From: Thermoplasmatales archaeon BRNA1
Lineage (GTDB): Archaea > Thermoplasmatota > Thermoplasmata > Methanomassiliicoccales > Methanomethylophilaceae
DNA length: 64,000 nt
NCBI GenBank assembly: GCA_000350305.1
Contig: CP002916.1
Span: 1,364,001 to 1,428,000 of the forward strand
Direction: 5' to 3'
A program made the position numbers and the translations under genes. Shown here piece after piece: positions 12,191-35,743 of this stretch. The notes under the pieces were generated by a model. It did not search any database, had not been told where the DNA came from, and saw only the letters and a list, made by a program, of their open reading frames with translations. The first letter of the stretch is position 1. The number at the start of each line of letters is the position of its first letter.

Positions 12191-14140
12191 ATGAAGAAGG
12201 AGATGAGCTCGTTCGACGTCAGCTCGGTGGTCAGGGAGATGGCCATCCTGGAGGACGCCCACATGGACAAGATCTACCAGTGGGGAGAAGGGAACGTGCT
12301 CTTCCGCATCAACACCAAGAACGACGGCAAGGCGGACCTCTTCTTCAAGGACAAGAAGTGGCTTTTCCTGTCGCCCGACAGGCCGGAGACCCCGGAGACC
12401 CCCACTTCTTTCGCCACCTTCATGAGGAAGTACCTCACCAACGCCAGGATCGGGAAGGCATCGCAGATTGGGTTCGACCGCATCGTGACCCTCGAGGTCT
12501 TCAAGGCGGACGCCGACTACCAGATCATCTTCGAGATGTTCGGGGGAGGGAACGTCCTCCTGGTCCAGGACGGCAAGATCGTGAACTGCCTGACGCAGAG
12601 GACCTTCCGCGACAGGGCAACCAGGCCCGGCGAGGACTACGTCATGCCCAAAGAGAGGTTCAACCCCCTTGCGGCCACCGAGGAGGAGTTCTCGGACGAG
12701 TTCCGCACCTCCGAGGGGGACACCGTCAGGACCCTCGCCACCGTCACAAACCTGGGAGGACAGTACGCCGAGGAGGTGTGCGCCAGGTCCGGTGTGGACA
12801 AGACCCTCCCTGCCGCGGAACAGGGCGATGGCGAGATCAAATCCATGTACGAGGCCCTCCACGCCATCGTCGAGGACATCAAGGAGCACCCCCAGCCCAC
12901 CGTCTTCCGCTACGATGGAAAGATCGAGGACATCGCCCCCGTGGACATGAAAGTCCACGACGGCTGCGAGAAGCAGCCCTACGATTCCATATCCAAGGCC
13001 ATCGGCGCTTTCATCGCCGAGGCCGCCATGCAGCAGAAGGTCGAGAGGACCGACCCCGAGATCGAGAAGCTCAAGAGGAGGATCGAGAAACAGCAGGAGA
13101 CCGTGGACGAGTACACAGTCAACGCCGAGCGTCTCAAGACTCAGGCCGATTCGCTGTACACCGAGTACAAGAAGGTCTCCGAGCTCCTCGCCGTGCTGGG
13201 GGAACAGAGCAAAAAGCTCTCCTGGGAGAAGCTCACTGAGGGCGCGCTGAAGATCCCCTACGTCGCCTACATCGACCCCTCAAAGAACACCGTCGCGGTA
13301 AGGATCGGCCTCCTGGAGATCGAGCTCGACTACACCAAGAACATCGACGCCAACGCCTCGGACATCTATGCGAAGGGAAAGGAGCAGTCCGAGAAGGCCG
13401 CCAACGCCATGAAGGCCCTGAACGACTCCAGGGAGGAGCTCGGAAAGAAAGAGAAGGGCTTCGAGAAGGTCAAGGCAGCGGAACTCTCCAAGGCTGCGCC
13501 CACCAAGAGGTTCTGGTTCGAGGCGTTCAAATGGTTCATCACCTCCGAGGGCAGGCTCGCACTTGCCGGAAGGGACACGCATTCCAACGACTCCGTCGTC
13601 AAGAAGCACATGAAGGAGAAGGACATCTACGCCCACGCAGACATCCACGGAGCCCCCTCCGTCGTTCTCAAGGAGGGATTATCCGCCACCCCGGACGAGT
13701 TCCGCGAGGCCTGCTGGTTCGCTCTGGCACAGTCCAAGGCATGGACGGCGGGATCCCCCGAGGGGGGTGCCTTCTGGGCATATCCCGACCAGGTCTCCAA
13801 GACTCCCAACGCGGGAGAGTTCGTCCCCCGCGGCGCCTTCATAATCCGCGGGAAGAGGAACTGGGAGTACCACATCCCTCTCGAGATGGGGATCGGCGAG
13901 ATCTACTACCAGAACGCCCGCAAGGTCATGTGCGCCCCCACCCCCGTGATCGAGAAGATGTCCGAGAGGTACTTCGTGATCAAGCCCTCCAAGGTCAAGA
14001 ACGGAAGGATGGCCGGCGACATCGCCAAGGCGTTCGAGGTGCCCGAGGAGGAGGTCTCCAGGATCCTCCCGCCGGGTTCGGTCGAGATCGTCCGCAAGGT
14101 CTGGCCCAAGGACGACGAGGAAGAATCCGAGTCGGAATGA
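12191..14140 (+). CDS. NFACT/Rqc2-family ribosome quality-control protein
   Basis: A 649-residue homologue of Rqc2/NEMF and bacterial RqcH, which bind stalled large ribosomal subunits and add a C-terminal tail to the nascent chain. The N-terminal NFACT-N domain carries the Asp-Arg pair (D96-R97 in GFDRIVTLE) that RqcH needs for tailing. A charged coiled-coil follows near residues 285-350, and the NFACT-R/DUF814 domain starts near residue 440 (RFWFEAFKWF, then HADIHGA). The C-terminal tail is acidic. ATG 12191 is chosen because TTTTATCAT lies about 26 nt upstream, giving a leaderless mRNA. A longer version starting at 12140 would include the promoter. Confidence 0.9.
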   Translation: MKKEMSSFDVSSVVREMAILEDAHMDKIYQWGEGNVLFRINTKNDGKADLFFKDKKWLFLSPDRPETPETPTSFATFMRKYLTNARIGKASQIGFDRIVTLEVFKADADYQIIFEMFGGGNVLLVQDGKIVNCLTQRTFRDRATRPGEDYVMPKERFNPLAATEEEFSDEFRTSEGDTVRTLATVTNLGGQYAEEVCARSGVDKTLPAAEQGDGEIKSMYEALHAIVEDIKEHPQPTVFRYDGKIEDIAPVDMKVHDGCEKQPYDSISKAIGAFIAEAAMQQKVERTDPEIEKLKRRIEKQQETVDEYTVNAERLKTQADSLYTEYKKVSELLAVLGEQSKKLSWEKLTEGALKIPYVAYIDPSKNTVAVRIGLLEIELDYTKNIDANASDIYAKGKEQSEKAANAMKALNDSREELGKKEKGFEKVKAAELSKAAPTKRFWFEAFKWFITSEGRLALAGRDTHSNDSVVKKHMKEKDIYAHADIHGAPSVVLKEGLSATPDEFREACWFALAQSKAWTAGSPEGGAFWAYPDQVSKTPNAGEFVPRGAFIIRGKRNWEYHIPLEMGIGEIYYQNARKVMCAPTPVIEKMSERYFVIKPSKVKNGRMAGDIAKAFEVPEEEVSRILPPGSVEIVRKVWPKDDEEESESE

Positions 14141-19890: not shown

Positions 19891-21765
19891 TCACCCGAGG
19901 AGCTTCCTGATCTCCTTGGTGAGGATGTCGGAGGCCTGTTTCCCGTCGATCTTTCCCCTGAGAGCGCCCATGACAGGACCCATGAGGGGACCGATGGCGG
20001 CCATTCCCTTGGAACGGACGAACTCCTCCCTCTCCCTGACGATCTTGGCGATGATGGCCTCGGCCTCTCCCGCATCGACGGCGGTGAGCCCGAGCTTCAT
20101 GATCGCCGCATCCATGTCGGTTCCGGATGCTATCTCCTTCAGAAGTGCGGGGATGGCCTCCTTCGCGAACCTGTTCTCCTTGAGCCCGGCGAACACGTTG
20201 TACATGTCGTCGTAGGTGAGCGCGTCGGTGTTGATTCCCTCGTGCTCCAGTTCGGAGAAGGTGTTCTGGAAGGTGGTAGCCGCGACGGCGGCCATGCCGA
20301 ACTCGTCCGCGATCTTGCAGAACACGTCGTCCCTTCCCTGGGCGACGATCTGGTGTGACTGCTGCTCGTTGATGCCGTACTGCTTCACGAGCCTGGCCTC
20401 GGTGACCTCGGGAAGCTCGGGCAGGTTCCTTGCGATCCTGTCGAGTCTCTGCCTGGTGATCGGGGTGGGCGGGACGTCGGTCTCGGGATACATCCTGGCG
20501 GCCCCGGGCAGCGGGCGGCTGTACTTGGTGGTGCCGTCCGGCAGCGGGTCGCGGGTCTCCTCGGGAACGCCCTCGAGGGCGGCATTGGCCCTGTTCACCG
20601 CGAGGGTCAGGGCATCCTTCGCCTTCTTCTCCTTGGCGGCACAGATGACGAATGCGTCGAACTCGCCGGTCATGCCGAGGGCCTCCCTCAGCCTGTCGAC
20701 GTACTCCTGCTCGATCCCGTAATTGGGGAGCTCGTCGGAATGGAAGATTCCCTTCACGCCGACGGTCCTGGCGTACTGGGCCATCTCGGAGCCCAGCCTG
20801 AGGGTCTTGTTGTCGCCGTTCATTACGCCGGCGAATCCGGGCAGCCTGCATGCCAGGACCCTGCCCTTGTCCTTGAGGGCAGAGACGATGATCTTGGACT
20901 CACAGGTCTTGAAGATGTCGGTGACGTCGACGAGGTCGACGGGCACCGCCTTGGTGCCGCGCTCGGCCAGGATCTTCTTCACACGGACGAGCATCTTCTG
21001 CCTCTTCACCTCGTTGGTGACGAAGTCGGGGAGCATGCGAAGCTCCTGGACTCCCTTGATCTCGATGCGAGCACCCTCGGGGATGGAGATGTTAAGATCC
21101 TCCCTGATGGTTCCGATCCCCCTCTTGACCCTCTTGGTGGCCCTGAGCAGGGTACCGATCCTGAGGGCGACCTCCATGACCTCCTGCGGGGTCCTCATGT
21201 CTGGGGCGGTGGCGACCTCGATGAGCGGGATACCGAGACGGTCGGTCCTCCAGACGACGTCGGTGTCGGTGGTGTCGATCTTCCTGCAGGCGTCCTCCTC
21301 CAGACAGACGGAGAGGATGCCAATCTTCCTTCCGATGGCCTCGACATATCCGTCCACGGCCACGAGGGATGTCCTCTGGAATCCGGATGTGTTGGAACCG
21401 TCGACGACGATCTTCCTCATGAACTGGACCTCGTCGATAACGGACGCGTGGACGAGCTCGGAGAAGATGAGGGTGGTCTCCATGGAGTCGGCGTTGACCT
21501 CGTGGGGAGGCTCCTCGTCGAGCTCCACGAGGCAGGTGGTGCCGGGACAGGACTGGTACTGGTACCCGTAGCCCCTGTTGAACTGTGCCAGAGCTGCGCG
21601 GTCGACCTCCCCCATCTCGGAGGTGGTGGGTCTGAGACGCCTGTAGATCGCTCCGGATCCCTCTTCGGAGAGACAGCTGTCGCAGTTGCAGAAAAGTTTC
21701 TTGGTGTCGAGCTGCTGGTGGATCTCGATACCGCACATCATGCCGTCGGTCTCGTTTTCGCTCAC
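19891..21765 (-). CDS. gatE: Glu-tRNA(Gln) amidotransferase subunit E
   Basis: GatE, with GatD, converts misacylated Glu-tRNA(Gln) to Gln-tRNA(Gln). It activates the glutamyl group with ATP and provides the tRNA-binding AspRS-like insertion and C-terminal YqeY-like tail. The 624-residue product starts with CGIEIHQQLDTKKLFCNC, the GatB/GatE signature, and keeps the zinc-type cysteines. The start is GTG 21765, whose GTGA overlaps the gatD stop, so translation is coupled. Archaea with GatDE use this as the only route to Gln-tRNA, so both subunits should be essential. Confidence 0.95.
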   Translation of the reverse strand: MSENETDGMMCGIEIHQQLDTKKLFCNCDSCLSEEGSGAIYRRLRPTTSEMGEVDRAALAQFNRGYGYQYQSCPGTTCLVELDEEPPHEVNADSMETTLIFSELVHASVIDEVQFMRKIVVDGSNTSGFQRTSLVAVDGYVEAIGRKIGILSVCLEEDACRKIDTTDTDVVWRTDRLGIPLIEVATAPDMRTPQEVMEVALRIGTLLRATKRVKRGIGTIREDLNISIPEGARIEIKGVQELRMLPDFVTNEVKRQKMLVRVKKILAERGTKAVPVDLVDVTDIFKTCESKIIVSALKDKGRVLACRLPGFAGVMNGDNKTLRLGSEMAQYARTVGVKGIFHSDELPNYGIEQEYVDRLREALGMTGEFDAFVICAAKEKKAKDALTLAVNRANAALEGVPEETRDPLPDGTTKYSRPLPGAARMYPETDVPPTPITRQRLDRIARNLPELPEVTEARLVKQYGINEQQSHQIVAQGRDDVFCKIADEFGMAAVAATTFQNTFSELEHEGINTDALTYDDMYNVFAGLKENRFAKEAIPALLKEIASGTDMDAAIMKLGLTAVDAGEAEAIIAKIVREREEFVRSKGMAAIGPLMGPVMGALRGKIDGKQASDILTKEIRKLLG

Positions 21766-23057
21766 AGCAGCAGCCTCCTGTCGGACATCTCGTCTGCCAG
21801 CGGGGTCTTCATGGCCTCCACGGCCGCCTCGCGGCCTTTGACGTTGGCCAGCACCCACATCAGTTTGGCGTATGCGGTCTCGGGCAGCATGTCGAGGACG
21901 GGCACGGCGCCGGCGTTCAGCATGTCCCTTCCAGTGTTGTAGACGTTGAGGTTGGTCCTCCCGTTGATGCACTGGGTGGTGATGACCACGACGATGCCCG
22001 CGTCTGTGGCCTCCTTGATCAGGGGAACCATGTTCTCGTTGACGTGTCCCAGGCCGGAACCGGAGATGACCACTCCCTTGGACTTCATGACGACGTCACG
22101 GAACAGCGAGGGGTCCATCCCGGGATAGAACTGCAGCAGGACGACCTGCTAGCACATGTCCGGGCTGACCTCGCATCTGTCCTTGGAAACGGGGCGTCCG
22201 GGGGTGTTGAAGGTGATCTTCCCGTCCCTGTCCAGGTGCGCGACCGGGGGGACGTTGATGCTCTGGAAGGCATCCCTCCTGGAGGAGTGCATCTTCCTGA
22301 CGCGGGTTCCCGCGTGGATGGCGAAGGAATCGTCTCCGGGGGTGTCGTGCATGCAGACGAACACTCCCGCGCGGTTCCCGTTGACGATGAACCTGGCGGC
22401 GGCCATGAGGTTGCTGGAGGCGTCCGAGGACGGACGGTCGGAGGACCTCTGGGCACCCACGAACACGACGGGCTTGGAGACATCCCCGAGCATGAAGGAC
22501 ACCGCGGCCGCGGTGTATCCCATGGTGTCGGTCCCGTGGGGGACGATGACCCCGTCGGCGCCGTTGTTGAGCTCCTCGGCGATGGCCTCGGCGAGCTTCT
22601 GCCAGTGGGGGACGGTCATGTTCTCGGAGAAGATGGAGAACAGGACCTTGGCCTGAAGGTTGGCGATGTCCATGATCTCCGGAACGGCGTTGATCATGTC
22701 GGCGGTGGAGAGGGCGGGATGGACGGCACCGGTCCTGTAGTCGACGTATGACGCGATGGTTCCCCCGGTGCCGATCAGGACGATGGTCTTCAGACCGTCC
22801 TTGGGCTTCGGAAGGTCCTCGTTCTTGACCCTCTCGACGGGCTTGGACTCCACCTTGACGGAGGAATCCTTGTCCATGCGGATACCTACGTTGTATCCGC
22901 TCTTCATCTTCAGGATGAGGATGTCCTCTCCGCTGAACTCGTGGTGGGGCATGAGGACTCCCCTGTAGGACTTGCCGGACGACTCGACCGTAAGCATGCA
23001 CCCCTCGTCGGCGCCGGCGGCCTTCAGTTTGTCCGAAAGGAACTGGGCATAGGACAT
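21762..23057 (-). CDS. gatD: Glu-tRNA(Gln) amidotransferase subunit D, with in-frame TAG (candidate pyrrolysine)
   Basis: GatD is the asparaginase-like subunit that releases ammonia from glutamine or asparagine for GatE. From ATG 23057 the frame gives 302 residues with GTGGTIAS (97-104) and HGTDTM (174-179). It then meets TAG at 22151-22149 and continues in the same frame for 128 more codons to TGA 21764-21762. The downstream part (FYPGMDPSLF, GSGLGH, TTQCINGRTNLNVYNTGR) is the normal GatD C-terminus. Full length with codon 303 read through is 431 residues, as expected for GatD. A TATA box at 23083-23093 predicts a leaderless mRNA. Read-through as pyrrolysine is the simplest explanation in a Methanomassiliicoccales genome; a sequencing error or a pseudogene is the alternative. 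Confidence 0.88.
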
Positions 23058-35024: not shown

Positions 35025-35453
35025 TCAGTCTACGCTGATGCTCTGGATATCGTGATGCCTGTTCACGATGTCACGGGCGATGCGAAGGTTCTTGCCGTTC
35101 TTGCCGATCGCACGTCCCTTCTTCTCGGGGTTGACCGTGACGGTGGCGTGCGTGATGTCTCCGCGCTGCTCGATAACGACGTTCGTAGGCTCGTAGATGT
35201 GGAAGACGTTCAGCACGAACTGCTTGGGATCGTCGGAGTACTCCACGACCTGGATGTTCTTCCCGGTCAGATCCTTGAGCTTCTTCATGTGGTCGCCGTT
35301 CTTCCCGACCGCGATGTTGCCCTGTCCCTTCTCCACGACGAACACGAGTTTCTCCTCGGTGTCCATGCAGTCGACTGCATTGGTGTGGGTTACCTGCTGG
35401 AACAGCGCTATGAAGCGGAGGGTCTCCTCTGTCAGTACGATATCTGCAGCCAT
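35025..35453 (-). CDS. nusA: NusA-like KH-domain transcription factor
   Basis: A 142-residue archaeal NusA homologue of two KH domains, without the S1 domain and N-terminal polymerase-binding part of bacterial NusA. Both KH loops read GKNGD/GKNGK (AVGKNGDHMKKL and AIGKNGKNLRIA). It probably binds nascent RNA during elongation or termination. It is the last gene of the rpo operon. In many archaea rps12, rps7 and elongation-factor genes follow, but here a convergent gene does. Confidence 0.93.
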   Translation of the reverse strand: MAADIVLTEETLRFIALFQQVTHTNAVDCMDTEEKLVFVVEKGQGNIAVGKNGDHMKKLKDLTGKNIQVVEYSDDPKQFVLNVFHIYEPTNVVIEQRGDITHATVTVNPEKKGRAIGKNGKNLRIARDIVNRHHDIQSISVD

Positions 35454-35458
35454 TTTGC

Positions 35459-35743
35459 TCACAGCGTTAAGATGTTGGAGGTACCCTTGTCGATGACGGC
35501 GAGGGCAGCGACGGAGTAGGGAACTCCGCAGAGAGCTCCGAGCTCCATGTTGTTTCCGCTGAACACATGGACCTTGACGTCCTTGTTGTTGGCCAGGAAG
35601 GCAGAGGGGCAGTTCTCGCTGACGATGATCATCTGCGCCTTTCCTGCCTTGACCGCCTTCTCGGTCTGTACGGTTCCGAACTCGACCTTTCCGGTCGAGA
35701 TTGCTGCCTTCAGTGCCTTTCCGATGTCGATTTCTTCGCTCAT
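35459..35743 (-). CDS. rpl30e: Large-subunit ribosomal protein L30e
   Basis: A 94-residue eL30, an RNA-binding L7Ae-fold ribosomal protein. It matches the family in KALKAAISTGKVEFGTVQT, the central GKAQMIIVSENCP and the C-terminal half. Its ATG overlaps the rpoA2 stop by four bases. Its place between rpoA2 and nusA is the conserved archaeal order. Confidence 0.95.
   Translation of the reverse strand: MSEEIDIGKALKAAISTGKVEFGTVQTEKAVKAGKAQMIIVSENCPSAFLANNKDVKVHVFSGNNMELGALCGVPYSVAALAVIDKGTSNILTL

Follow-up and report, generated by a model that had tools for sequence, protein, structure and literature searches.

Amber codons inside genes other than those of methyltransferases have been described before in the order Methanomassiliicoccales. 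Borrel et al. 2014 gave 16 non-methyltransferase candidates for pyrrolysine (Pyl) in 'Ca. Methanomethylophilus alvus', tied them to the rarity of TAG stops, and proposed that growth might come to require the Pyl cassette through such insertions (PMC4153887). For ISO4-H5, 46 genes with an in-frame amber codon have been reported (PMC5011839). A further case is Thg1, the tRNA-His guanylyltransferase of Methanosarcina acetivorans, in which Pyl has been physically observed, although the enzyme does not require it for activity (PMC2933860, citing Heinemann et al. 2009).

Here we describe an in-frame TAG in gatD, the gene for subunit D of Glu-tRNA(Gln) amidotransferase, within a 64-kb stretch (the window) of the genome of Thermoplasmatales archaeon BRNA1, which is a single contig of 1,461,105 bases. 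The codon is most likely read as pyrrolysine, as UAG is in the methyltransferases MtmB, MtbB and MttB; BRNA1 has six such TAG-containing genes (two mtmB, two mtbB and two mttB-type), among which the mtbB genes are presumed to be such from their size, position and the published gene order. In those enzymes Pyl is catalytic and conserved, whereas the gatD site is variable. Kivenson et al. (Science, 2025) reportedly give proteomic evidence that certain archaea read every TAG codon as Pyl. Relative to ISO4-H5 the gene sets differ, and the gatD site is CAG in G036, the closest complete relative (1,937,883 bases), which we take to be probably ISO4-H5. Nevertheless, ISO4-H5, a rumen relative of the same order, is similar in that its adenylate kinase, phosphoglucose/phosphomannose isomerase and geranylgeranyl reductases are encoded with amber codons (PMC5011839). 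BRNA1 likewise resembles Ca. M. alvus, also of this order, where conserved non-methyltransferase genes (Cas1, MtxX and digeranylgeranylglyceryl phosphate synthase) carry ambers, TAG is little used as a stop and dependence on Pyl decoding has been proposed; however, other genes are affected, and gatD is absent from the 16 candidates (PMC4153887). Thg1 is comparable as a tRNA-related enzyme in which the amber was gained in one species only (PMC2933860), but there Pyl was seen in the protein, whereas in GatD it is predicted from the gene, and GatD supplies Gln-tRNA. An amber codon in gatD was not found mentioned in the accessible portions of the literature. The first-pass annotation nonetheless overstated the novelty of the case, as ambers in conserved non-methyltransferase genes of the order and the idea of Pyl essentiality were published in 2014 and 2016 (PMC4153887, PMC5011839). 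The gatD amber adds one more case to a pattern known from close relatives, and its use lies mainly in the genes affected, as gatD, priL and carA are housekeeping genes present in single copy; what makes it notable is that the supply of Gln-tRNA would be tied to Pyl decoding.

The gatD reading frame and codon 303

The gatD gene (21762..23057, minus strand) runs in one frame from ATG at 23057 to TGA at 21764-21762, and its sole in-frame TAG lies at 22151-22149 (codon 303), in agreement with the first-pass annotation. With UAG taken as sense, the product is 431 residues long and residues 17-428 match the GatD models NF003217 of NCBIfam (521 bits, cut-off 310) and TIGR02153 (504 bits, cut-off 324), so the claim of normal GatD sequence on both sides of the TAG and of a family-like length is upheld. 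If UAG terminated, the segment for residues 1-302 (22152..23057, minus strand) would remain and that for residues 304-431 (21765..22148, minus strand), which contains the invariant motifs YPG (311-313), GSGLGH and DMLPET, would be lost. The adjoining gatE (19891..21765, minus strand; 624 residues; 778 bits to NF003107) begins with a GTG that overlaps the gatD TGA (GTGA), and gatE is therefore probably translated after, and coupled to, gatD.

Across the order, gatD was matched in 133 of 147 genomes, and an internal stop was found in the BRNA1 gene only; a scan of genome contigs for a second sequence of the same species yielded relatives only. A second intact gatD would have spoken against the reading of UAG as sense, and a search of the BRNA1 genome found a single copy. 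Codon 303 is CAG in three same-genus genomes and CAA, ACC, ACG, TCC or CGG in other near relatives, while more distant ones mostly have AGG or AAG, such that the residue outside BRNA1 is Q, R, K, T, S or G. The earlier suggestion that the TAG lies one base from GAG at a Glu position does not survive this comparison, as the close relatives show CAG, CAA or Thr, Ser and Arg codons. Glu appears at the site only in distant GatD, for example in the proteins of solved structure that we take to be from Methanothermobacter and Pyrococcus, and an origin from GAG was rejected in view of the Gln CAG of the nearest relatives. Because these carry CAG, a one-step C-to-T change explains the codon, and the TAG is most simply a CAG-to-TAG transition at a variable position.

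An AlphaFold model of GatD built with 19 sequences (mean pLDDT 81, and about 94 around residues 301-310) locates residue 303 within a coil, immediately ahead of strand 305-310 of the C-terminal part, consistent with the linker location before the second asparaginase subdomain proposed in the first-pass annotation. Given the variable site and the predicted coil, Pyl at this position is probably a neutral passenger with no catalytic role. gatD does not show what is expected of catalytic Pyl, namely a catalytic-site amber shared by the homologues; its UAG instead replaces a sense codon of the relatives and is flanked by coding sequence on both sides, the pattern of a neutral gain. The model also bears on whether UAG terminates and the C-terminal part arises by re-initiation, producing a two-piece GatD. 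An ATG does sit 10 codons downstream of the TAG, but a protein begun there would lack both the predicted strand 305-310 and the conserved YPG, GatD is unsplit in relatives with an intact gene, and the other amber genes of BRNA1 would be left unexplained, making this reading exceedingly improbable.

Read-through as a single protein agrees with the constraint on the gene. Relative to G036, residues 90-302 have a dN of 0.112 and a dS of 0.60, and residues 304-431 a dN of 0.139 and a dS of 0.65; between relatives that lack the TAG, dN likewise rises slightly downstream of site 303. The similar values on each side of the TAG indicate that residues 304-431 are still under purifying selection, as would be expected if they are translated.

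Pyrrolysine machinery and the supply of Gln-tRNA

The genes needed to decode UAG as Pyl, whose presence in the genome the first-pass annotation left to be checked, were all found (pylT, pylS, pylC, pylD and pylB). A pylS gene over the model cut-off lies at 990726-991547 on the minus strand and clusters with pylC and pylD, and pylB is at 442315-443328; all four exceed curated cut-offs. Directly 5' of pylS is a 71-nt candidate pylT with a CTA anticodon (991573-991643, minus strand), the sequence of which recurs at 90-100% identity over essentially its whole length in 14 of 14 genomes of the genus. The element had no match in Rfam and its minimum free energy fold does not show a cloverleaf; we take it to be the tRNA-Pyl gene from its genus-wide conservation and, in part, from its resemblance to the known tRNA-Pyl sequence. 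Since stop codons are generally leaky, the UAG might instead be read through by a near-cognate tRNA that inserts a standard amino acid. This seems very unlikely, as a dedicated and conserved tRNA-Pyl/PylS pair exists, the excess of continued genes is confined to amber (see below), and leaky read-through would yield little GatD. One aRF1 gene over the model cut-off is present in the genome, so termination may compete with the decoding of UAG. A search for a PYLIS-type element after the gatD UAG gave nothing meaningful, and the RNA of this region folds with only mild stability (z -1.8); as PYLIS is reportedly not required (PMC9499178), its absence is weak counter-evidence.

With this machinery, it is highly probable that gatD gained its in-frame UAG when a linker position tolerant of change underwent a CAG-to-TAG transition, and that tRNA-Pyl charged by PylS decodes it, which would produce full-length GatD with a near-neutral pyrrolysine at residue 303. 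Such a change would be survivable where UAG is decoded as sense with high efficiency and seldom serves as a terminator, and its consequence would be that Gln-tRNA synthesis through GatDE needs Pyl decoding. It is from the DNA that we infer actual incorporation of Pyl, its neutrality and the dependence on it.

The archaeal route to Gln-tRNA is GatDE (PMC9499178), and no GlnRS gene reaching the model cut-off was detected in the genome; if UAG decoding is real, the supply of Gln-tRNA would thus depend on Pyl. GatA- and GatB-like genes (a GatCAB) are present, and these lend some support to the alternative that the TAG is a genuine nonsense mutation, that GatD has been lost and that another enzyme such as GatCAB carries out the glutaminylation. 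We consider this alternative extremely unlikely, as constraint beyond the TAG is intact, gatE is intact and kept, no GlnRS exceeds the cut-off, and archaeal GatCAB reportedly selects against Glu-tRNA(Gln) (PMC9499178).

Amber codons elsewhere in the genome

A simple gene caller placed 47 genes wholly within the window, ending in TGA (40), TAA (5) or TAG (2), and the TAG ends are gatD itself and a spurious ORF (35052-35519, plus strand) antisense to real genes. The earlier statement that no window gene besides gatD ends in TAG therefore holds, although on a count of 47 genes versus the 55 of the first-pass annotation. Genome-wide, strongly coding sequence continues beyond the stop in 17 of 48 called genes ending in TAG, as compared to 2 of 98 for TAA and 36 of 1150 for TGA (17/48 versus 38/1248, Fisher p = 6e-13; p = 2e-8 after dropping methyltransferases and one spurious ORF). 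This test is stricter than raw extension scoring, which TGA-ended operon genes also passed, and most of the TGA cases involve genes that abut, the next start falling within 0-4 codons; the known neighbors pylC and pylD are among them. A homology control was performed over 1.2 Mb of one relative, G036, retaining frames whose differences fall mainly at third codon positions, a filter that removes antisense and upstream artifacts. The 593 true-frame genes aligned to BRNA1 contained 11 internal TAG codons, distributed over 10 genes, and a single TGA, an edge artifact opposite a gap at the end of the alignment; no TAA was seen. Codon usage predicts TAG for about 60% of random nonsense changes and TAA or TGA for about 40%, so this 10/10 result has a p of only about 0.005-0.01, and the weight of the amber-specific case is carried by the genome-wide continuation test.

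The same data bear on a sequencing or assembly error in gatD, the true codon being sense and most likely CAG. Across the order, the TAG is confined to this gatD, and a single transition separates it from CAG. Moreover, the alignments of two genes near C1 positions 882598 and 78002 to G036 switch frame at a precise junction, which suggests single-base frameshifts, either errors or real, and that a few errors may be present in the assembly. However, the amber-only pattern is repeated in many genes, and errors should also have created the TAA and TGA codons that, bar the edge artifact, the aligned genes lack; we therefore regard an error as unlikely. Under the favored reading as pyrrolysine, gatD would be one of roughly fifteen to twenty genes in the genome with an internal UAG presumably so decoded; about 24 further TAG-ended ORFs, many of them probably spurious, bear on whether any genuine gene still ends in TAG, as none would under a complete reassignment of UAG to Pyl.

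The first-pass annotation's proposal that UAG is also read outside the methyltransferases gained support from further interrupted housekeeping genes. Two are single-copy and on the minus strand: priL, for the large subunit of DNA primase (C1:43601-44641, L006:3601-4641; TAG at codon 245), and carA, for the small subunit of carbamoyl-phosphate synthase (C1:490848-491933, L028:10848-11933; TAG at codon 143), the latter with one full-length match. In both, the TAG is found only in BRNA1 among 14 genomes of the genus. In-frame TAG codons where G036 has CAG or GAG also occur in a 2,3-bisphosphoglycerate-dependent phosphoglycerate mutase gene (gpmA, C1:846198-846947), a CobT-like gene (C1:469668-470783) and a CobN/BchH-like (CobN/magnesium-chelatase H-like) gene (C1:1098649-1102392). 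Other read-through products contain domains of PPK2, sodium:solute symporter, carbon-nitrogen hydrolase, ABC ATPases, GNAT acetyltransferase, thioesterase and Ogg-like glycosylase. It is possible, though somewhat less likely than not, that UAG in effect specifies Pyl genome-wide and that, as single-copy gatD, priL and carA carry it, Pyl decoding has become indispensable on any substrate. If confirmed, Pyl-tRNA would be required alike for Gln-tRNA supply, DNA priming (PriL) and carbamoyl phosphate (CarA), a code expansion optional for methylamine use would have been locked in by ordinary drift, and the published proposal of Pyl dependence would become testable. The case would also caution that essential genes of such genomes are broken by standard annotation.

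Several minor observations were made alongside these genes. A short ORF (C1:234894-235322) with two in-frame TAGs and no Pfam match has partial similarity to a G036 gene. The priL gene of a same-genus draft genome (G038:C2:29524-30552) contains one in-frame TGA, an error or a disruption. Among the methyltransferase genes (L053:19720-19819 and 12397-12499, minus strand), PYLIS_3 (mttB) scores well above its gathering score, and PYLIS_1 is seen in both mtmB genes only below theirs.
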